Origin: Streptomyces curacoi
GTDB taxonomy: Bacteria; Actinomycetota; Actinomycetes; Streptomycetales; Streptomycetaceae
Direction: 5' to 3'
Assembly: GCF_001513975.1 (NCBI RefSeq)
Contig: NZ_KQ947985.1
Span: 558,001-622,000, forward strand
DNA length: 64,000 nt
The notes under the pieces: generated by a model
What the model saw: the letters and a program-made list of their open reading frames with translations, nothing else
Databases searched by the model: none
What the model was told of the DNA's origin: nothing
Made by a program: the position numbers and the translations under genes
Shown here: piece by piece, positions 42,348-50,483 of the stretch
How the letters are laid out: each line of letters begins with the position of its first letter
Position numbering within the stretch: position 1 is the first letter of the stretch

Positions 42348-44069
42348 TCACGGCGACGGCAGGCGCAGGGTGAGGAGGGCTACGTCGTCGGTGCTGCCGG
42401 GCGGCATGCGGGCGAGCAGTTGGTCGCACAGCGTGTCCAGCGGTTCGTGGGCGAGAGCGAGGGCGTGGCGGCGCAGACGGGCGAGGCCGGTGTCGAGGTC
42501 GCTGCCGGGGATCTCGATCAGGCCGTCGGTGTAGAGCAGCAGGGTGGAACCCGGCGGCAGGGGCTCCGTGGCGTTCGGCCGGCTGCCGCCGCCAGTGCCC
42601 GGAGGGGCGCCGAGGAGGAGTCCCTGCCCGGCTTCGAGGTACCGCGCCTGTCCGTCCTGGGTCAGCAGGAGGGGCGGCGGATGCCCCGCGCTGGTCCACC
42701 GCAGCGTCCACGGGCCGGTGTGCGGGCTGCCTTCGAGCAGGGCGAGGACGAGGGTGGCCATGGGGACGGTGGTGATGGCGGGCATGGCGTCGTCGAGGCG
42801 GTCGACGACGGCGCCGGGCGGGCCGCTGTGGTCCCAGGCCAGTGAGCGCAGGATGCCGTGCAGTTGCGCCATGCCGGCCGCCGCGGTCAGGTCGTGGCCC
42901 ACCACGTCGCCGATGACCAGCGCGAGCGTGCCGTCCTTCCGCTCGAACGCGTCGTACCAGTCGCCACCGACCTGGGAGCCGGCCGGGGCGGGCTGGTAGC
43001 GGGCGGCCAGCCGGAGGCGGCCGGGCTGGGGCAGTGGGGCGAGCAGGTTGCGCTGCATGGCCTCGGCGACGGCGCGCTGGCGGCCGAAGCGGCGGGCGTT
43101 GTCGATGACCAGGCCGACCCGGCGGCCGATGTCGCTCACCACTTTCAGGTCGTCGGCGTCGAAGGGGTGGGCCGGGTCCGTGCGCACCAGCGTCAGGGCG
43201 CCGGTGGTCTGCCGCCGGGAGCCCAGCGGCACCGTGACGGCGGACGTCGCGCCGGCGGCCCGCAGGAAGCCGCTGTGGACGGCGGCCAGGGCAGATGCGG
43301 TCGGTGCGGCCATGTCCGCCTCGCGCTGCAGGACGGGATCACCGCCGTTCAGCACTTGGACCAGAGGGGAGCGGGCCTCCTCCCCGGCCTCGGGAAGGCG
43401 CTCGTGCCAGTCCTCCTGTGCGGCGTCCCGGCCTTCGGGACCCGTCACCGCCACACGGTGGACCTGTCCGGAACCGACCCGGAGGTCCACCGCCGCCCAG
43501 TCGGCGAGGCGGGGAACCAGCAGGCGGCCCAGCCGGGCGAGGGCCTCATCGGTCTCCAGCGTCTGACCGAGCACGTCGGTGATCTCCGCGACCAGCGTCA
43601 GCCGCTCGGTGAGGTCCTCCAGAGCACGGGTGTAGGCCGCACGCTCCCGACGCGCGCTGCGGTCGCCGGCGGCGTCGGTGAACAGCACGGCCATGCCCAT
43701 GAAGGCGCCGTCGTCCGTCAGGGGAGAAGCGGACCAGGAGACCGCGATCAGGCGACCGTCACCGCGCAGACAGATGTCGCCCTCCCCCCGCGCCTCGGCC
43801 CTCTCGGCCACGGCCCGCAGCAGCGGGCACTGCTCCCGGGGGATCCTGCCGCCGTCCGCATCCCGGTGCAGCAGGTCGTGTGCGTCCTCCCCGCGCATCG
43901 CCGCGGCGGCGCGGCCCAGCAGCCGCTCGGCGGCCGGGTTGACCGCGAGAATCCGTCCGGCGGGGTCCACCACGATCAGGGCCGTGCCCAACTGCCCGAC
44001 GACCCGCCGCCAGAAACCCGGCTCGGCCGCCGACCACCACCGCCCCTCATCTCCCACACCCTCCACCAC
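42348..44069 (-). CDS. PAS-GAF-PP2C (SpoIIE-type) serine phosphatase
   Basis: 573 residues: PAS domain about 20-130 (QLGTALIVVDPAGRILAVNPAAERLLG), coiled linker, GAF domain about 160-320 (TDEALARLGRLLVPRLADWAAVD, VTVPLGSRRQTTGALTL), then a PP2C/SpoIIE phosphatase about 350-570 with metal-binding VGGDWYDAF, VIGDVVGHDLTAA and STDDVALLTL. Such enzymes dephosphorylate anti-anti-sigma factors and so release stress sigma factors; no anti-sigma kinase or antagonist gene is in the window. GTG 44069 is preferred, with GGAGGGG just upstream. Confidence 0.9.
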   Translation of the reverse strand: MVEGVGDEGRWWSAAEPGFWRRVVGQLGTALIVVDPAGRILAVNPAAERLLGRAAAAMRGEDAHDLLHRDADGGRIPREQCPLLRAVAERAEARGEGDICLRGDGRLIAVSWSASPLTDDGAFMGMAVLFTDAAGDRSARRERAAYTRALEDLTERLTLVAEITDVLGQTLETDEALARLGRLLVPRLADWAAVDLRVGSGQVHRVAVTGPEGRDAAQEDWHERLPEAGEEARSPLVQVLNGGDPVLQREADMAAPTASALAAVHSGFLRAAGATSAVTVPLGSRRQTTGALTLVRTDPAHPFDADDLKVVSDIGRRVGLVIDNARRFGRQRAVAEAMQRNLLAPLPQPGRLRLAARYQPAPAGSQVGGDWYDAFERKDGTLALVIGDVVGHDLTAAAGMAQLHGILRSLAWDHSGPPGAVVDRLDDAMPAITTVPMATLVLALLEGSPHTGPWTLRWTSAGHPPPLLLTQDGQARYLEAGQGLLLGAPPGTGGGSRPNATEPLPPGSTLLLYTDGLIEIPGSDLDTGLARLRRHALALAHEPLDTLCDQLLARMPPGSTDDVALLTLRLPSP

Positions 44070-44412
44070 GCCGCCCCTCCAGTCATGGAAACCCTCCGCG
44101 GGCGCATCGGCAGACCGACACACCGGTCGATCGATGGTTCCCCGACTTGGCTCGATCAACTCCGCGACCTTGCCTCCGGCCCGTGGTGTACGACGCGTAC
44201 GGGTAGTGGTCGTCGCCGAGCCGGTCGGCGGCGTACGGGCGCCTTCGGCGTACGACCTGCTCCGGCGTGGACGGTGCCGGTCCGGACGGCACCCGCGCCA
44301 GCGCGGGGCCGGGCGCGGCGGCGCCCGGCCCTGTCAGGAAGGCCACGCGTTCCCGCGGGCGGGGGCCCTCACCCCTGCCTTGCAAGCCCTCGGAGACGCG
44401 GTTCTTGGCCGG
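44070..44412. other. Intergenic stretch, no gene seen
   Basis: The upstream region of the phosphatase gene, about 340 bases with no convincing coding frame. No clear terminator for the preceding DUF6131 gene is visible. Confidence 0.4.
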
Positions 44413-44568
44413 TCACCAGTAGTGGCGTCGTCCGGCGACGGCGTGTCCCAGCGCGCCGAGGACCCACAGGATCACTCCGAGGGCTACGAGGACGATCCCG
44501 ATGGTCCACAGGATGGATATGCCGGCGACGAAGCCGACGACGAGCAGTATGACGCCCAGGATGATCAT
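44413..44568 (-). CDS. DUF6131-family small membrane protein
   Basis: 51 residues, almost entirely two hydrophobic helices: MIILGVILLVVGFVAGISIL and IGIVLVALGVILWVLGA, with the conserved C-terminal end AVAGRRHYW. I recognise the DUF6131 pattern; function unknown. GGGGAGG precedes ATG 44568. Small hydrophobic proteins of this kind are often stress-induced in actinobacteria, which fits the neighbouring Asp23 genes. Confidence 0.8.
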   Translation of the reverse strand: MIILGVILLVVGFVAGISILWTIGIVLVALGVILWVLGALGHAVAGRRHYW

Positions 44569-44702
44569 GACGCCTCCCCTGTGGAGTAGTTCCGGTTCCA
44601 CTGTGAACTGCGAGGGGCCCGGAGGGAAGGGGGGGACCGTGATGGTCGGCCTCCCGAGCCCTGTGCCCAGGGGCAAGTCCGGCGGCAAGCGCTTGCCCCG
44701 CT

Positions 44703-45311
44703 CTATTGCGCGCGGTGGGGTTTGTGGCGAGCGACGCGCAGCCGTGCCTCGGTGGGCATGCGCGGGGAGCCGGTGGACTGGTGGGCGGCGAGCAGCGGAC
44801 CCTCGCAGAGTGCGTTGAGGACAGCGTCCGGTGTTCCCTGAGGGGTGAGGGTGAGGGTGATGTGGGTGCGCGGGTGGGCAGGCCGGCCTGTGATGCGGAC
44901 GTCCGCCTGCTCGACGTCGGGCAGGGCGCGGGCCTCGGTGGCGATGGCGTCGCTGAGTGCCCGGTCGCGCAGTTCGACGCCTTCCTGCGGGGGTGTGCCG
45001 CCGACGGGCATCGCGCCGGGGTGGCGCCGGCGCAGTTGGGCGAGCAGCCACCACAGGGCGAGCAGGGTGATGAGAGCAAGCGTGGCGATGACTGCGGGCC
45101 ACCACCACCAGCCCTGGCTGCTCCAGCGTGCCCGGTCGGCGGAGCTGAGCAGGATGTCGTCCGGGGTGGTCAGGGGCCAGCCGGCGGGCGGCGCCAGGTC
45201 GTGTCGCCGGTAGAGGTCGAGCCCGGCGGCCATGATCAGCAGGCCGCCGCCGAGCATTACCAGTCCGGTGAGGGCCAGCAGGATGCGGTTGAGCACGGGT
45301 CGCGGCGTCAT
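44703..45311 (-). CDS. AmaP-like Asp23 membrane anchor
   Basis: 202 residues: two membrane helices (LLALTGLVMLGGGLLIMAAGL and WWWPAVIATLALITLLALWWLL) separated by a short outside loop, then a cytosolic domain (GVELRDRALSDAIATEARALPDV, HITLTLTPQGTPDAVLNALCE) that resembles Asp23/AmaP folds. In Staphylococcus AmaP holds Asp23 at the membrane; a similar role is inferred from the neighbouring Asp23-type genes. ATG 45311, last gene of a minus-strand run. Confidence 0.75.
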   Translation of the reverse strand: MTPRPVLNRILLALTGLVMLGGGLLIMAAGLDLYRRHDLAPPAGWPLTTPDDILLSSADRARWSSQGWWWWPAVIATLALITLLALWWLLAQLRRRHPGAMPVGGTPPQEGVELRDRALSDAIATEARALPDVEQADVRITGRPAHPRTHITLTLTPQGTPDAVLNALCEGPLLAAHQSTGSPRMPTEARLRVARHKPHRAQ

Positions 45312-45336
45312 GGTCGGGCTCCGTTGCCGGGTGTCG

Positions 45337-46038
45337 TCAGACGGTGCGTCGCCGTACACGTACGACGATGCGGGGAGGACGGGACAGGGCGAGCCGGTCG
45401 CGTTCCTCGTTGAGGACGGCGAAGAGGTCGTCCTTGACCTGCTCGGGGTCGCGGAAGCGGATGTCCGCGCGGGCTTTGACGCGGTGTCGACGCACCCGGA
45501 TGCGAGCCGTGCTGACGCCCGGGACCCGCATGGCGGCGTCGCGCAGCAGAGCGGCGGCGCCGTCGCGGTCCAGTGATGCCCGCAGGTGGGGCGGGGGGCA
45601 GCCGGGAGGGGACCGCAGAGGCAGCAGGCGCCGTAGGCCAGGGGTGAGTGCCAGGGTGATCAGCCAGACGCCGACGGCAGCGGCCACGGCGGCTCCCGTG
45701 AGCATCCACACGTCGTCCACCGGTCGGGTGGCCAGTTCGTCGGCCAGGTGCTTTCGCCAGGCTGCTGCCTGGCGTCCGGCCCGTACGGCGACGACATCGA
45801 ACAGTGCCGCGCCTGCCGCCACGAGAATCGCCGAGGCGACCAGGGCGGCCGGAAGGCGGCGCGCCGACCACGGGCGGTGGGTCGTGTGCTGTCCGTTGCG
45901 GTCGCCCGCTGCCGCGTCCGGTGGGGGCGCGTCGCGTTCGGGAGGTTCGGACTCGGCCGGCTCGTTCGCCGATGACATCGTGTCAGGGCTCATCGGTGGT
46001 GCGGACCTGCGGCCGGGAGGGCCCGGGTCGGGCGTCAT
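45337..46038 (-). CDS. DUF6286-family membrane protein
   Basis: 233 residues: a long acidic, Pro-rich cytosolic lead (about 1-55), two membrane helices (LPAALVASAILVAAGAALFDVV and MLTGAAVAAAVGVWLITLALT), then a cytosolic domain LRASLDRDGAAALLRDAAMRV, STARIRVRRHRVKARADIRF. DUF6286 proteins accompany Asp23 genes in streptomycetes and are thought to be envelope-associated. It starts 48 bases after the Asp23 gene's stop, in the same operon. Confidence 0.85.
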   Translation of the reverse strand: MTPDPGPPGRRSAPPMSPDTMSSANEPAESEPPERDAPPPDAAAGDRNGQHTTHRPWSARRLPAALVASAILVAAGAALFDVVAVRAGRQAAAWRKHLADELATRPVDDVWMLTGAAVAAAVGVWLITLALTPGLRRLLPLRSPPGCPPPHLRASLDRDGAAALLRDAAMRVPGVSTARIRVRRHRVKARADIRFRDPEQVKDDLFAVLNEERDRLALSRPPRIVVRVRRRTV

Positions 46039-46086
46039 TCCGGTTCTCCTTCGTGTGCGGCATGTCGGGCGACCGAGCGCGGCGGC

Positions 46087-46503
46087 TCAGCGGACCCGTC
46101 GCCGCTTCGCGTGGGTGGCGCTCACCAGTCGCCGGATGGTGAGGGTGACTTCTGCTACGTGCAGGCCGGTCAGTTGGGCCACCCGCTCGGCGACGTCGTG
46201 CTGTATCCGCTCACAGACGTGGGGGATGTCGGTGGGATACGGCAGGTCCAGGGCCAGGTGGAGGCGCACCGATCCGGTACGGATGGCGGCGGAGGCGCTC
46301 GGCGCTGCCGATCCGCTCCGGTCCTGCGGTAGGGCGGCACGCCGGGACTGAGCCGCACGTGCGGCCTGGGTGGCGATACGGGAGACCACCTTGTCGGGGA
46401 TGACGGTGGCGCCCCGATCGGCCGGGGGCGGCAGGTCGACGGCCCGCGGCGATGGACTGCGCGCGGTGCCGGGGGGGCCGGCGGAGCCGGGTGGGGAGCT
46501 CAC
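46087..46503 (-). CDS. Asp23/Gls24-family envelope stress protein (1)
   Basis: 138 residues: a disordered Ser/Pro lead, then the Asp23 core GATVIPDKVVSRIATQAARAA, VRLHLALDLPYPTDIPHVCERIQHDVAERVAQLTGLHVAEVTLTI. Asp23 proteins are alkaline-shock proteins that coat the inner face of the membrane. GTG 46503 overlaps the stop of the small membrane protein by 4 bases (GTGA). Confidence 0.88.
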   Translation of the reverse strand: MSSPPGSAGPPGTARSPSPRAVDLPPPADRGATVIPDKVVSRIATQAARAAQSRRAALPQDRSGSAAPSASAAIRTGSVRLHLALDLPYPTDIPHVCERIQHDVAERVAQLTGLHVAEVTLTIRRLVSATHAKRRRVR

Positions 46504-46667
46504 CGCTGCCTCCGTGCGGGAAGTTCGAGGTCACCCTGCAGGACGAGGCCGACGATCAAACCCGCCGCGCCCAGGATCAGAACGAGCAGGAACGCCCAGA
46601 AGCCGCCGAAGTAACCGGCGAAACCCAGGGCCATGCCGGCCGCGAGGCCCGTAGTCGCTGTGTTCAT
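46500..46667 (-). CDS. Small two-helix membrane protein of the Asp23 operon
   Basis: 55 residues: MNTATTGLAAGMALGFAG, then YFGGFWAFLLVLILGAAGLIVGLVL and LELPARRQR. Two hydrophobic stretches, Gly-rich, no other motif. ATG 46667 has GGTGAG upstream, and the stop overlaps the Asp23 start, so this is a genuine coupled gene. DUF2273-type membrane partners often accompany Asp23 proteins; this matches that size and layout. Confidence 0.8.
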   Translation of the reverse strand: MNTATTGLAAGMALGFAGYFGGFWAFLLVLILGAAGLIVGLVLQGDLELPARRQR

Positions 46668-46745
46668 CACTCACTCACCCGTCTCGCGAGCGCCATCCAG
46701 TGATCACCCGCTCACGCCGGGACGCGGCGGTTGACCACGGCCGGA

Positions 46746-47234
46746 TCACCTCACGCGGCCCTCATCCGGTTCGGACTCTTCAGACTCCTCCTCATCAGGG
46801 AGGTGGACGTCATCGACGGCGATGTTCACCTCGACGACCTCCAGGCCCGTCATCCGCTCCACGGCGCTGATCACGTTGGTGCGCACGTCACCGGCGACCT
46901 CGACGATGGAGACGCCGTACTCGACGACGACGTCCAGGTCCACGGCGGCCTGGCGCTCCCCGACCTCGACCTTCACCCCTCGCGTGACGCCGCCGCCTCC
47001 GCCCGGGACGCGCTCCCGCACGGCGCCGATGGCGCGGGCCATCCCCGCACCGAGGTTGTGGATGCCCGGTACCTCGCGGGCGGCCATGCCCGCGATCTTG
47101 GCCACCACGCCGTCCGCGATGGTGGTCTTCCCTCGTGTCTCCGCCGGAGCCCCGGCCCCGGTACGGCCCTTCAGCGCGCTCGTGTCTCCGTCGGGCCGGC
47201 TGCCCTTGCCGACGCCGGTGGTGTTGTCCGTCAT
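46746..47234 (-). CDS. Asp23/Gls24-family envelope stress protein (2)
   Basis: 162 residues from ATG 47234: a polar lead (about 1-45), then KTTIADGVVAKIAGMAAREVPGIHNLG, GVKVEVGERQAAVDLDVVVEYG, VRTNVISAVERMTGLEVVEVNIAVDDVHL and an acidic tail EEESEESEPDEG. This is the canonical Asp23 of the set and the first gene of the minus-strand operon, divergent from the ECF sigma factor. An upstream ATG (47294) lacks a binding site. Confidence 0.9.
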   Translation of the reverse strand: MTDNTTGVGKGSRPDGDTSALKGRTGAGAPAETRGKTTIADGVVAKIAGMAAREVPGIHNLGAGMARAIGAVRERVPGGGGGVTRGVKVEVGERQAAVDLDVVVEYGVSIVEVAGDVRTNVISAVERMTGLEVVEVNIAVDDVHLPDEEESEESEPDEGRVR

Positions 47235-47325
47235 GGCGGTCGCCTCGATCGGTCGGTCGGGCACCGGTGTGATGCCCGTCAGAAGGTTGGACATATGGGG
47301 CGGTCGGCTTCTCACATGCAATGAA

Positions 47326-47358
47326 TGTGATGTGAATCACAGTCTCGGGGTGGGGTAC
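47326..47358 (+). promoter_or_regulatory. CRP-like palindrome overlapping a sigma-B-like promoter
   Basis: TGTGA-N6-TCACA at 47326-47341 is a perfect CRP-family site. GAAT at 47334-47337 and GGGTAC at 47353-47358, spaced by 15, match the streptomycete sigma-B form GNNT-N14-16-GGGTAC. Both lie 36-68 bases before the sigma-factor start and between it and the divergent Asp23 operon. Confidence 0.65.
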
Positions 47359-47393
47359 ACGTTCGTTCGCCCCGAGCCGTGAGCAGGAGCGGC

Positions 47394-47969
47394 ATGATCG
47401 AGCGGACCGGTTTTCCACCTCTGGGATGCGACCTGCCGGACGGACTGCTGGCCGTGCGGGCGGCCGAAGGAGACGAGGACTCCTTCGCTGTTCTCGTCCA
47501 GCGGCACAGCCGGCCCCTCCTGGCCCTGGCCCGTTGCATGCTCGGCAACGCCCAGGACGCCGAGGACGCTGTGCAGGACGCCTTCGTCAGCGCGTGGCGG
47601 CGACTGCCGGAATACCGCCACGGTGCGCAGTTCCGCACCTGGATGTACCGGATCACCGTCAACCGTTGCCTGACCATGCGACGCCGCCGGCTGCCGCCCC
47701 TCCCCTTGGACGCCGTGGCCGAACCCGCGACGGGCGACGAGTGGAGCTCGCCCGCCCGCGCCGCGGAGCAGAACGCGGCCACGGCAGCCCTGGCCCGCGC
47801 GCTCGGCGAGCTGGACGCCGGACAGCGTGTCTGCTGGATCCTGCGGGAACTGCAGGGCCTGCCCTACAAGGAGATCGCCCACGTGACACAGACCAGTGAG
47901 CAGACCGTGCGCGGCAGACTGTTCAGGGCACGCCGGTCCCTGAAGGAGGCGATGGCCCCATGGCGCTAG
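47394..47969 (+). CDS. ECF (sigma-70 family) RNA polymerase sigma factor
   Basis: 191 residues: region 2 about 25-90 (DEDSFAVLVQRHSRPLLALARCML, DAEDAVQDAFVSAWRRLPEY, FRTWMYRITVNRCL) and region 4 about 130-185 (ELDAGQRVCWILRELQGLPYKEIAHVTQTSEQTVRGRLFRARRSL). GAGCAGGAG precedes ATG 47394. It overlaps the next gene by 10 bases, the usual layout for an ECF factor and its antagonist. It probably directs the Asp23 group or itself; the target promoter is unproven. Confidence 0.93.
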   Translation: MIERTGFPPLGCDLPDGLLAVRAAEGDEDSFAVLVQRHSRPLLALARCMLGNAQDAEDAVQDAFVSAWRRLPEYRHGAQFRTWMYRITVNRCLTMRRRRLPPLPLDAVAEPATGDEWSSPARAAEQNAATAALARALGELDAGQRVCWILRELQGLPYKEIAHVTQTSEQTVRGRLFRARRSLKEAMAPWR

Positions 47970-48640
47970 ACGACCCGCACGCGCGGCCGTCCGAACCGCC
48001 CGGAACCGACGGGCCTCGCAACGCCCCAGCCGTGGACGACGCGGTCCCGTTCGCAGGTGACGAGGTACTGCCGTGCGGCCGCCTGCTCAGCCGGGTGTGG
48101 GAACAGGCGCAGGACGCGGCGCCGGCCGCGGATCCGCACACCCTGTCATGTCCCCACTGCCGCGAGGCCGTCGAGGGACTGGCCACGGTGAACGTGGCCA
48201 CGCGGGCGATGCGCGCCAAGGACCCGCCCGGCCTGCAGGCACTCGCCGACCGGGTCATGAGCGTCGTCAGGGCCGAGGTCCGCCTCGGACGGCTGCTGCC
48301 ACTGGCCGACACGGATCTGGATCTGAGGATCGCCGAGAGCGCCGCGGCGAAAGTGCTGCGGCAGGCCGCGGACACGGTGCCCGGTGCGCGGGCCGCGACC
48401 TGCCGGCTCGTGCCCGCGGGTGAGGGCACCGGCGTGCGGGTGACCATGACCCTGGCTGCCGCCCTCGACCGCCCGCTGCCCGAGAGGGTCGATCAGGTAC
48501 GCCGATCGGTCCTCAACGCCGCCGGCCAAGATCTGGGGCTGGCCGTGACGGCTGTCGACATCATCGTGGTCGACGTGCTTGAACCGTTCCCGCCCCTCGA
48601 CCCCGCGGGCTCCGGGCACCTCACAGGCGGTGGTACGTGA
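47960..48640 (+). CDS. Possible anti-sigma factor with Asp23-like domain
   Basis: 226 residues. The lead has CGRLLSRVWEQAQ and HTLSCPHCREAVEGL, with Cys/His spacing like anti-sigma zinc fingers (zf-HC2). The C-terminal half, LPLADTDLDLRIAESAAAKVLRQAADTVPGARAATCRLV to VTMTLAAALDRPLPERVDQVRRSVLNAAGQDLGLAVTAVDI, follows the Asp23 fold. No membrane segment. The 10-base overlap with the sigma gene fits an antagonist. The fusion reading is mine and needs a structure prediction. Confidence 0.65.
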   Translation: MALDDPHARPSEPPGTDGPRNAPAVDDAVPFAGDEVLPCGRLLSRVWEQAQDAAPAADPHTLSCPHCREAVEGLATVNVATRAMRAKDPPGLQALADRVMSVVRAEVRLGRLLPLADTDLDLRIAESAAAKVLRQAADTVPGARAATCRLVPAGEGTGVRVTMTLAAALDRPLPERVDQVRRSVLNAAGQDLGLAVTAVDIIVVDVLEPFPPLDPAGSGHLTGGGT

Positions 48641-49026
48641 TGGCTGCCACCGACGCGACCCCTCTCCTGCGCGTCGCCGCCGAGGCGGCCCTCGCGGTTC
48701 CCGGCGTGGCCGGCCTGCAGCCACGCCTCGCCCACCGCCTCGCGGCGGCCGCCTCGCCCACGCGGCCGGAGACGACAGCTGAACGCATCCCGTCCGAGGC
48801 GAGCGTCCGCGTCGTCCGCATCGACCGGGCGCCGGACGGCCCGGGATGGCACATCGAGGTGCGCTGCGTCCTGGCCGAAGGCCCCAGGGCGTTGGACACC
48901 GCCCGGACCGTCCACCACCAGGTGCGGGCCGCTGTCATCTCCCACCTCGCCGCACACGGCGCCCCGGCGGCAGCCACCGTCACCGTCACGGTCACCCGTA
49001 TCGTCGCCCCGCACCACTCACCATGA
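48640..49026 (+). CDS. Asp23-like small protein, divergent
   Basis: 128 residues from ATG 48640, overlapping the upstream stop as TGATG. It has LLRVAAEAALAVPGVAGLQPRLAHRL, then SVRVVRIDRAPDGPGWHIEVRCVLAEG and HHQVRAAVISHLAAHGAPAAATVTVTVTRIV: two-layer alpha/beta order typical of Asp23 proteins though weakly conserved. Third gene of the sigma operon. Confidence 0.65.
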   Translation: MAATDATPLLRVAAEAALAVPGVAGLQPRLAHRLAAAASPTRPETTAERIPSEASVRVVRIDRAPDGPGWHIEVRCVLAEGPRALDTARTVHHQVRAAVISHLAAHGAPAAATVTVTVTRIVAPHHSP

Positions 49027-49163: not shown

Positions 49164-50483
49164 TCACCGGCGGCGCCGGGCGCGGCTCGGGCCCGTGCCG
49201 CGCTGGTAGATGTCGGGGATGCCGTCGGCGTCCTCGTCGAGGTGCTCCTCCTCCCACAGCCTGCGGTAGATGCTGTTACGCCGTTTGACCAGCAGCGCGG
49301 CCATGCCGGCGGCGAGCAGTGAGCCGACCAGTACAGCGGCCTTGATCCGCTCGGTGTCAGCCGGTTCGGTGAAGGCCACCTCGCCGATGAGCAGTGCGAC
49401 GGTGAACCCGATTCCGGCGAGAACCGCGAGGGCGAAGACGTCGGCCCAGGCCAGGTCGGGGTTGAGCCGGGCCCGGGTGTACCGGGCGGCGAGGTAGGTT
49501 CCCGCGAAGATTCCCACGGCCTTGCCGACGACCAGGCCAAGCACCACGCCCAGCGGCTCGGGACGGGTGAACACCTGGCCCAGCACGGGAACGGAGATGC
49601 TCACTCCGGCGGCGAACAGGGCGAACAGGGGGACGGCGACACCGGCTGATACCGGACGCAGCAGGTGCTCGGCGCGCTCCCCGGGCGAGACATCCTCGCC
49701 CGTACCCTGGTCGCGGGCGCAGCGAAGGATCAGTCCCATCGCCACCCCGGCCACGGTGGCGTGCACCCCGCCGTTGTACATCAGCGCCCAGATGACCACG
49801 GCCAAGGGCACGTACCACCACCATCCGCGCACCCTGAACCGTTGCAGCAGGTAGAAGACGACCAGCCCGCCGACAGCCCCTCCGAGGGCTACCGGGTTCA
49901 GGCGGCTGCTGAAGAACAACGCGATGACCAGGATCGCGCCCAGGTCGTCGACGACCGCCAGGGTGAGCAGGAAGGCCCGCAACGCGGTCGGCATGTGGGT
50001 GCTGAGCACGGCGAGGACCGCGAGTGCGAAGGCGATGTCGGTCGCCATGGGCACCGCCCAGCCGTCGGCACGGCCGCCACCGGCAGCGGCCGTGGCCAGG
50101 TAGATCGCCGCAGGAACCACCATGCCGCACGCCGCGGCGACCACGGGCAGGACCGCGGTCGCCGGGGTGCGCAGCCGGCCGGCCACGAGTTCGCGTTTGA
50201 GCTCGATCCCCGCGACCAGGAAGAAGACGGTGAGCAGCCCGTCGGCGGTCCAGTGCTGCACCGACAGATCCAGCCCGAGCGCCGCCACCCCGAAGTGGAC
50301 GTCGCGCAGCGCCTCGTAGCTCCCGCGCCACGGGGTGTTCGCCCACACGAGCGCCACCAGGGCGGCGATCAGCAGCACCAGGCCACCGACCGTCTCCGTT
50401 CGCAGGGCCCGGGCCACCTGTATGCGTTCCGGCCAGGGCAGCAGTCCGAGGAAGACCGAAGGCTCGCGCGGGGCAGCAGGCAT
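49164..50483 (-). CDS. nhaA: Na+/H+ antiporter NhaA
   Basis: 439 residues with about twelve membrane helices and the full NhaA signature: FFLVAGIELKRELVAGRLR, VPMATDIAFALAVLAVL, and LTLAVVDDLGAILVIALFF carrying the two adjacent Asp residues that bind Na+/H+. It exports Na+ in exchange for H+ and supports growth in alkali and salt. Its place next to Asp23 genes fits an alkaline/osmotic stress role. GGAGG precedes ATG 50483. The C-terminal tail (IYRRLWEEEHLDEDADGI) is acidic. Confidence 0.95.
   Translation of the reverse strand: MPAAPREPSVFLGLLPWPERIQVARALRTETVGGLVLLIAALVALVWANTPWRGSYEALRDVHFGVAALGLDLSVQHWTADGLLTVFFLVAGIELKRELVAGRLRTPATAVLPVVAAACGMVVPAAIYLATAAAGGGRADGWAVPMATDIAFALAVLAVLSTHMPTALRAFLLTLAVVDDLGAILVIALFFSSRLNPVALGGAVGGLVVFYLLQRFRVRGWWWYVPLAVVIWALMYNGGVHATVAGVAMGLILRCARDQGTGEDVSPGERAEHLLRPVSAGVAVPLFALFAAGVSISVPVLGQVFTRPEPLGVVLGLVVGKAVGIFAGTYLAARYTRARLNPDLAWADVFALAVLAGIGFTVALLIGEVAFTEPADTERIKAAVLVGSLLAAGMAALLVKRRNSIYRRLWEEEHLDEDADGIPDIYQRGTGPSRARRRR

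Follow-up and report, generated by a model that had tools for sequence, protein, structure and literature searches.

The Asp23-AmaP system of Staphylococcus aureus is controlled by the sigma factor SigB. Proteins of the Asp23 family occur widely among Gram-positive bacteria (PMC5437119), and what they do at the molecular level was termed unclear in 2020; in S. aureus, Asp23 forms filaments that are anchored to the membrane by AmaP, and rings when this anchor is lost (PMC6954212). This study concerns a group of Asp23 genes and an adjoining gene for an extracytoplasmic function (ECF) sigma factor in Streptomyces curacoi. They lie in a stretch of 64,000 nucleotides of contig NZ_KQ947985.1 (positions 558,001 to 622,000 of the forward strand), which is referred to throughout as the window, provides the coordinates given for the locus and belongs to a genome of 8.4 Mb.

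The pairing of Asp23 proteins with ECF sigma factors is not new as a class. Groups ECF286, with a Streptomyces model protein, and ECF292, with a Mycolicibacterium one, come from the classification of Casas-Pastor et al. (2021), in which WP_003983642.1 is a reference protein of ECF286, and adjoin soluble Asp23-family proteins that are predicted anti-sigma factors; both groups were put aside in a 2022 review for want of experimental data, and the same review lists zinc-domain regulators apart, as ECF270 and ECF271, and gives no mechanism for the Asp23 type (PMC8999054). A well-described zinc-dependent anti-sigma factor is RsrA, which has a CHCC site composed of Cys11, His37, Cys41 and Cys44; the site responds to disulfide stress, and its N-terminal cysteine is required for oxidative release (PMC4960319).

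The locus in the window probably encodes a sigma/anti-sigma module that is complete in itself and serves an Asp23 membrane scaffold, and in which the sigma factor would be held by a cytosolic anti-sigma factor that combines a zinc-motif domain with an Asp23-like domain.

The ECF sigma factor and its genomic neighbourhood

The sigma factor is encoded at 47394-47969 on the plus strand, a start at 47379 also being possible. Among sigma domains, Pfam finds above cut-off only region 2 (Sigma70_r2, E 9.9e-19) and region 4 (r4_2, E 3.1e-13), which is the domain content of an ECF sigma factor, and the protein scores 99.3 bits against TIGR02937 (cut-off 42.9). The following gene, at 47960-48640 on the same strand, overlaps the sigma gene by 10 bases and encodes the proposed anti-sigma factor, a protein of 226 amino acids with a zinc-motif domain fused to an Asp23-like domain (hereafter the fusion protein). 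Divergently, on the minus strand, lies the first gene of an operon, which encodes the canonical Asp23 protein Asp23-1 (46746-47234; PF03780, E 3.5e-30, above cut-off).

Related loci were compared in two sets, one consisting of the best-scoring loci of separate searches (L010-L063) and the other of the best 80 of 225 confirmed loci (L064-L143). The criterion for both was similarity to the fusion protein, irrespective of whether a sigma gene was present. The sets overlap: clustering at 95% identity reduces 135 proteins to 103 clusters. Alignment A4 contains 56 of 81 rows (L102, L110, L119, L128 and L138 being among those left out) and alignment A1 contains 47 of 55. The close group (the window's clade), the third group and clade B were delimited by locus range and by similarity rather than from a phylogenetic tree.

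The sigma gene directly precedes the fusion gene in 54/54 loci of the first set and 80/80 of the second; in the latter the overlap between them is 10 bases in 53 loci and 4 bases in 25 (78/80 together). A divergent Asp23-1 gene is found in 77 of the 80 sigma/fusion loci, and the contigs of the other three end within 1.5 kb. These 80 closest loci belong to Streptomyces or unclassified relatives (77) and to Actinacidiphila or Wenjunlia (three). Within the genus, the arrangement of sigma factor, zinc domain and Asp23 domain occurs in 44 of 150 genomes, that of the window included, when matches beginning before residue 40 with E <1e-15 are counted. An earlier note on this DNA, made from the sequence alone, had paired the sigma factor with the Asp23 genes and proposed conservation of gene order as a check. 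The pairing is borne out, in that the sigma gene is unlinked in neither set, and together with a shared promoter-like dyad (below) this supports the assignment of the sigma factor to the Asp23 genes.

The distance between the sigma gene and Asp23-1 is less than 0.6 kb in 69 loci and 2.6-4.1 kb in eight others (L119, L120, L121, L124, L126, L127, L134 and L141). Three of these eight were inspected, and large open frames of unknown family lie between the two genes.

The zinc-motif domain of the fusion protein

The fusion protein carries the motif C39-x20-H60-x3-C64-x2-C67 within a domain of approximately residues 35-112, followed at approximately residues 115-208 by the Asp23-like domain, which contains a conserved cysteine, C148. 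Residues C39, C64 and C67 are present in 80/80 aligned rows and H60 in 79/80 (window included, one truncated row excluded); in the other, overlapping set, the counts are 55/55 for C39, H60 and C67 and 54/55 for C64. These counts include L063, in which C64 is lost, and L083, in which H60 is replaced by Arg, both of which were left out of the zinc-domain profile along with the truncated L117. Across the family the spacing is C-x18-21-H-x3-C-x2-C, with a gap of 18-21 residues between the first cysteine and the histidine in 127 of 132 members and of 20 in the window protein. The motif is of the CHCC type found in zinc-binding anti-sigma (ZAS) proteins, and its gene, like theirs, is positioned directly behind an ECF sigma gene.

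Among 47 members of the family, matches below cut-off were obtained to the NCBIfam anti-sigma models antisigmaE (six), RsrA (five) and NF052375 (one) and to zf-HC2 (one); in a distant member, NF052375 spans residues 25-93 with E 0.0027. When the zinc-domain profile was compared with 10 zf-HC2 proteins of the same genome, it reached 51% (E 1.5e-4), in register on H-x3-C-x2-C, against 0.08-0.5% for five column shuffles used as a control. Each of the 10 zf-HC2 proteins is encoded 0.5-1.3 kb behind a sigma region 2 of the same strand, in every case within 1.4 kb, and C39 of the window protein lies 581 bases behind sigma region 2. Predicted alone, the zinc domain yields a four-helix model with a predicted local distance difference test (pLDDT) score of 84. 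Mainly from the motif, the position and the domain swapping described below, we infer that the CHCC region is a zinc anti-sigma domain. A reading as a C2H2 zinc finger was rejected, on context only.

Asp23-like domains of the plus-strand proteins

The C-terminal half of the fusion protein matches the Asp23-1 family with a profile-profile probability of 92%. The third plus-strand gene (48640-49026, with a GTG start at 48637 or an ATG at 48640) encodes a protein of 128 amino acids with a single Asp23-like domain, which matches the same family at 88%; its open reading frame starts with a 4-base overlap in 66 of the 79 loci examined. The C-terminal half and the 128-residue protein match each other at 8% only, and the sigma factor stays below 1% against Asp23-1, the C-terminal half and the 128-residue protein alike. 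The Pfam Asp23 model (PF03780) gives the fusion protein 14.6 of the 28 bits that its cut-off demands and does not match the 128-residue protein; the distant counterparts of the fusion protein in L210 and L211 exceed this cut-off. The earlier description of the plus-strand pair as two further Asp23-like proteins finds support in profile comparison and not in Pfam, and it had overlooked the zinc anti-sigma-like domain carried by the first of them, which makes the pair more than additional coat proteins.

The Asp23-like domain was modelled with high confidence, and the modelled fold resembles the C-terminal domain of MamM (Z 11.0, root mean square deviation (rmsd) 1.8, 77 residues aligned) and the ring-building PrgK (Z 10.6, rmsd 2.1, 81 residues aligned). 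Such a fold would suit a role in oligomerisation, a likeness that is not proof of function. The fold search with the whole model was dominated by this domain, and hence the zinc domain was modelled separately. The fusion protein contains no membrane segment besides a stretch that is modelled as a beta strand.

Promoter-like elements in the divergent intergenic region

A promoter-like dyad, GTGAG-N17-TGTCCAAC, lies at 47286-47315 on the minus strand and reads towards Asp23-1; it is proposed as the target of the ECF sigma factor. Its general form is GTNA[C/G]-N16/17-TGTCC, and divergent intergenic regions were scanned with GT[ACG]A[CG]-N15-18-TGTCC. In the window's clade the dyad reads towards Asp23-1 in 43/45 loci (shuffle mean 0.22) and towards the sigma gene in 1/45; in the third group these counts are 16/30 and 2/30. 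Clade B has it towards the sigma gene in 42/57 loci and towards Asp23-1 in 11/45, and in four clade-B genomes both divergent promoters bear the dyad. Shuffled means are at most 0.31 in all groups, and after deduplication the dyad is found at either gene in 26/27, 13/25 and 37/49 clusters, respectively. This conservation supports the view that the shared dyad may tie the sigma factor to the Asp23 operon, and its presence before the sigma gene in other clades suggests that the sigma gene could be autoregulated there. The classical ECF motif GGAAC-N15-17-CGT[C/T] was rejected, being found on neither strand in any of 79 loci.

A stricter pattern, GTGAS-N16-17-TGTCCAA, occurs at four sites in the window's genome; three are inside open frames of 590-613 codons, and the window's own site is in a frame of 232 codons that continues into Asp23-1. 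Strict matches number 33 in 26 clade-B genomes, with 24 at the Asp23 locus (in 20/26 genomes) and nine elsewhere. The nine are about as many as the seven found with a reversed control pattern, and no regulon beyond the locus is indicated in these genomes. Seven off-locus sites were inspected, of which five are in open frames of more than 500 codons (on either strand) and two in shorter ones, of 307 and 180 codons, although long open frames are common in G+C-rich DNA and so are weak evidence of coding.

Two further elements precede the sigma gene in the window: a CRP-like palindrome, TGTGA-N6-TCACA, at 47326-47341, and, on the plus strand at 47334-47358 (its start taken from the matched pattern), a SigB-type promoter-like sequence, GNNT-N15-GGGTAC, that reads towards the sigma gene. 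The palindrome is present in 42/45 close loci (shuffle mean 0.00), 6/30 of the third group and 0/57 of clade B. The SigB-type pattern GNNT-N14-16-GGGTAY, for which a published consensus served as comparison (PMC8346170), is present in 36/45 close loci (shuffle mean 0.73) and in 0/30 and 0/57 elsewhere. As general features of the module both were rejected, since they occur mainly in the window's clade.

Paralogous clusters without a sigma gene and exchange of the zinc domain

Paralogous clusters that lack a sigma gene offer a comparison within and between genomes. Twenty were analysed, 19 of them fetched and one being the second copy in the window's own genome (G000, contig C1, approximately 50.4-53.7 kb), and each consists of a five-gene operon and a divergent double Asp23-like protein. 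None of the 20 has a sigma gene beside it: no sigma-profile match is found in the 19 fetched stretches (approximately 5 kb on each side), and the own-genome cluster has one at a distance of 5.4-7.1 kb, not adjoining. Nor does any of the 20 contain a match to the zinc domain or its motif, or the dyad on either side. Position 148 is Leu or Val in these clusters and Cys in 80/80 sigma-bearing loci. The clusters were chosen by matches that start after the zinc domain, a choice that partly builds in the lack of this domain but not the lack of a sigma gene or of C148. One locus, L173, was left out of the set on account of a contig end just upstream and of C148, which it possesses. A third Asp23 gene of the window's genome (L007, contig C21, 9891-10217) has two TGA codons within the match and is apparently decayed.

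Beyond the window's family, the arrangement of sigma factor, zinc domain and Asp23 domain is represented by L208, L209 and L211, in which the genes stand together in tandem and are not divergent. The Asp23 domain to which the zinc domain is joined in L211 exceeds the Pfam cut-off (E 8e-17), and C148 is retained in L208-L210. A different arrangement is found in two distant genomes of the same phylum (L212, 1-1813, and L213, 4897-6493): an ECF sigma gene is followed by a CHCC protein of 112-115 residues without an Asp23 domain, and then by a gene for an MscS-type channel, which is possibly a tension-linked sigma system. In a comparison with 30 of the 57 sigma loci of the window's genome, the sigma factors of L208-L211 match that of the window best, and those of L212 and L213 match another paralogue slightly or clearly better.

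The minus-strand operon and flanking genes

The operon that begins with Asp23-1 continues with a membrane protein of 55 amino acids (46500-46667), weakly DUF2273-like (PF10031, E 0.032), which has a single hydrophobic stretch of 38 residues (12-49) and a homologue in 76/80 loci. It is followed by Asp23-2 (46087-46503), a soluble Asp23 protein (PF03780, E 1.4e-8, above cut-off) with a 99.9% profile match to Asp23-1. Next is a DUF6286 protein (45337-46038; PF19803, E 3.4e-29), likely a second anchor, with two hydrophobic segments (residues 61-88 and 109-135) and a C-terminal domain; Asp23-1 has no profile match to DUF6286 (<1%). The protein encoded at 44703-45311 matches the NCBIfam AmaP model NF033218 over positions 4-158 of 166 (E 4.1e-13) with 49.4 bits, under the equivalog cut-off of 55, and is for this reason named no more than AmaP-like. 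It has two hydrophobic segments, at residues 6-34 and 68-94, and a C-terminal domain related to DUF6286/Asp23: its profile matches the DUF6286 family at 95% and the C-terminal domain of the fusion protein at 75%, and gives no match to Asp23-1 (0.2%). The last gene, 44413-44571, encodes an accessory member of 52 amino acids, a small DUF6131 membrane protein (PF19626, E 5.8e-7, above the Pfam cut-off), with a homologue at the equivalent place in 18/80 related loci. All of these genes are on the minus strand, and the content and order that had been read from the sequence beforehand are confirmed.

The module is flanked by two further minus-strand genes, for a SpoIIE/PAS/GAF phosphatase (42348-44159) before it and for an NhaA-type Na+/H+ antiporter (49164-50483) after it. 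They were rejected as members, the NhaA gene being beside the module in 0/80 loci and the SpoIIE-type gene in 7/80 (flanks of up to 7 kb). Since the divergent Asp23-1 gene recurs in 77/80 loci while the window's flanking genes do not, the association of Asp23 and sigma genes is not a matter of chance.

Proposed mechanism and alternative explanations

In the mechanism that we propose, the N-terminal CHCC zinc domain would hold the ECF sigma factor encoded just upstream, and the Asp23 domain of the same protein would dock onto, or be displaced from, an Asp23 assembly that the AmaP-like and DUF6286 proteins would anchor at the membrane. Oxidation of the zinc site, a change in the assembly, or both, would free the sigma factor, which would then transcribe the Asp23 operon from GTNA[C/G]-N16/17-TGTCC, the site at 47286-47315 being conserved and its recognition predicted. 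In the window's clade, the SigB-type sequence and the CRP-like site may feed general stress or nutrient control into the sigma gene. A more specific form of this mechanism is put forward tentatively, and we regard it as possible and not as probable: a redox-type zinc domain and a scaffold subunit (Asp23) are covalently joined, sigma release would integrate thiol oxidation, at the zinc site and the class-specific C148, with the assembly state of the same scaffold whose operon is under its control, and the zinc domain would be a swappable unit that elsewhere stands beside MscS-type channel genes.

Several observations weigh against an anti-sigma role for the fusion protein or against parts of the mechanism. 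The anti-sigma and zf-HC2 models give no match to the window protein itself. The model of the zinc domain obtained seven Foldseek matches in the PDB, all weak and none to a zinc anti-sigma fold, which says little either way about this domain, and in a sequence search of the PDB the anti-sigma factor RslA (3hug) appeared with E 0.088, behind two eukaryotic zinc-finger proteins and a TFIID subunit. In L210 (6419-7006, minus strand), C39, H60 and C64 are lost and C67, C148, the sigma gene and the Asp23 domain are kept, from which it follows that not every such module depends on zinc; L211 has Gly at position 148, and C148 is thus not universal. The dyad is at neither gene in 1/45, 14/30 and 12/57 loci of the three groups, and its near absence from the sigma gene in the window's clade (1/45) means that no autoregulation is seen there. 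Finally, the signal that releases the sigma factor is one that we purely infer.

Of the alternatives, the likeliest keeps the anti-sigma role but treats the zinc as structural only and sigma release as a matter of titration, with free Asp23, or Asp23 that has lost its anchoring, competing for the Asp23 domain. The C-terminal half of the fusion protein and the scaffold proteins of the adjacent genes belong to one family, the modelled fold of this half is like the ring-building and oligomerisation domains of PrgK and MamM, S. aureus Asp23 changes from filaments to rings when its anchor is lost (PMC6954212), and L210 retains the module with three of the four zinc ligands gone. We nonetheless consider this explanation rather unlikely, because the N-terminal ligand is an invariant cysteine in the Streptomyces sets, a residue needed for oxidative release in RsrA (PMC4960319), and because C148 splits the sigma-linked from the sigma-less class, which a structural zinc leaves unexplained, although L211 lacks it.

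It is also conceivable that there is no anti-sigma factor, that control is exerted through transcription of the sigma gene itself and that the plus-strand proteins are structural Asp23 subunits with a zinc motif for assembly. The SigB-type sequence (36/45) and the CRP-like site (42/45) before the sigma gene of the close clade would fit this, as would the weak family matches of the zinc domain; but few or none of the loci in the other two groups have these upstream elements, although the pair of sigma factor and zinc protein is kept there, the 20 sigma-less clusters have no zinc domain, and in L212 and L213 this domain stands behind a sigma gene on its own, in a short protein that lacks Asp23, which together make this account improbable. 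No more credible, and in our estimate very improbable, is a general alkaline or envelope-stress coat module in which the sigma factor does nothing but respond to stress on the envelope. The composition of the operon (Asp23, AmaP-like, DUF6286) and the function of Asp23 in S. aureus (PMC6954212) agree with it, but the proposed regulator has no membrane segment apart from the modelled beta strand, and a CHCC site indicates a cytosolic signal. Of the envelope-stress module with its own sigma factor that the earlier note had envisaged, the linkage stands; in view of the CHCC type of the site, the signal may be thiol oxidation or the state of the scaffold and not alkaline or wall stress. The sigma/anti-sigma module with a zinc/Asp23 anti-sigma factor remains the reading that we prefer.

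Comparison with described systems

In the literature on Asp23, on ECF286 and ECF292 and on zinc anti-sigma factors, as far as it was accessible, no study of a module of sigma factor and zinc/Asp23 protein was found among the matches listed. If the more specific form of the mechanism is true, the fusion protein would be an anti-sigma factor of a new architecture, which monitors a membrane scaffold from the cytosolic side. The proposed module offers a prediction of how an envelope system of bacteria that is still poorly understood may be turned on. The fusion protein, its set of cysteines, the promoter and the sigma-less control in the same genome make Asp23 function, and groups ECF286 and ECF292, directly testable.

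Compared with the Asp23-AmaP system of S. aureus, the locus is alike in combining Asp23 and a membrane anchor in one operon (PMC6954212) and differs in its dedicated ECF sigma factor, its two Asp23 proteins, its extra DUF6286 anchor and its zinc/Asp23 fusion protein. With RsrA of the Streptomyces RsrA/SigR pair, the fusion protein shares the four ligand types in the same order; RsrA is a protein of 105 amino acids in which Cys11 and His37 are 25 residues apart (PMC4960319), whereas here the gap is 18-21 in most members and 20 in the window, and an Asp23 domain is fused behind the zinc domain. The sigma-less cluster of the window's own genome has the same five-gene operon and divergent double Asp23-like protein, but is without an adjoining sigma gene, the zinc domain, C148 (Leu/Val instead) and the dyad. 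In ECF286 and ECF292, compared here through a review (PMC8999054), an ECF sigma factor likewise stands beside a soluble protein of the Asp23 family for which an anti-sigma role is predicted; the locus differs from these groups in the CHCC zinc domain on the Asp23 protein and in having a proposed target operon and promoter. To the predicted Asp23-type kind of anti-sigma factor, this study thus adds a zinc domain, a predicted target promoter and sigma-less paralogues.

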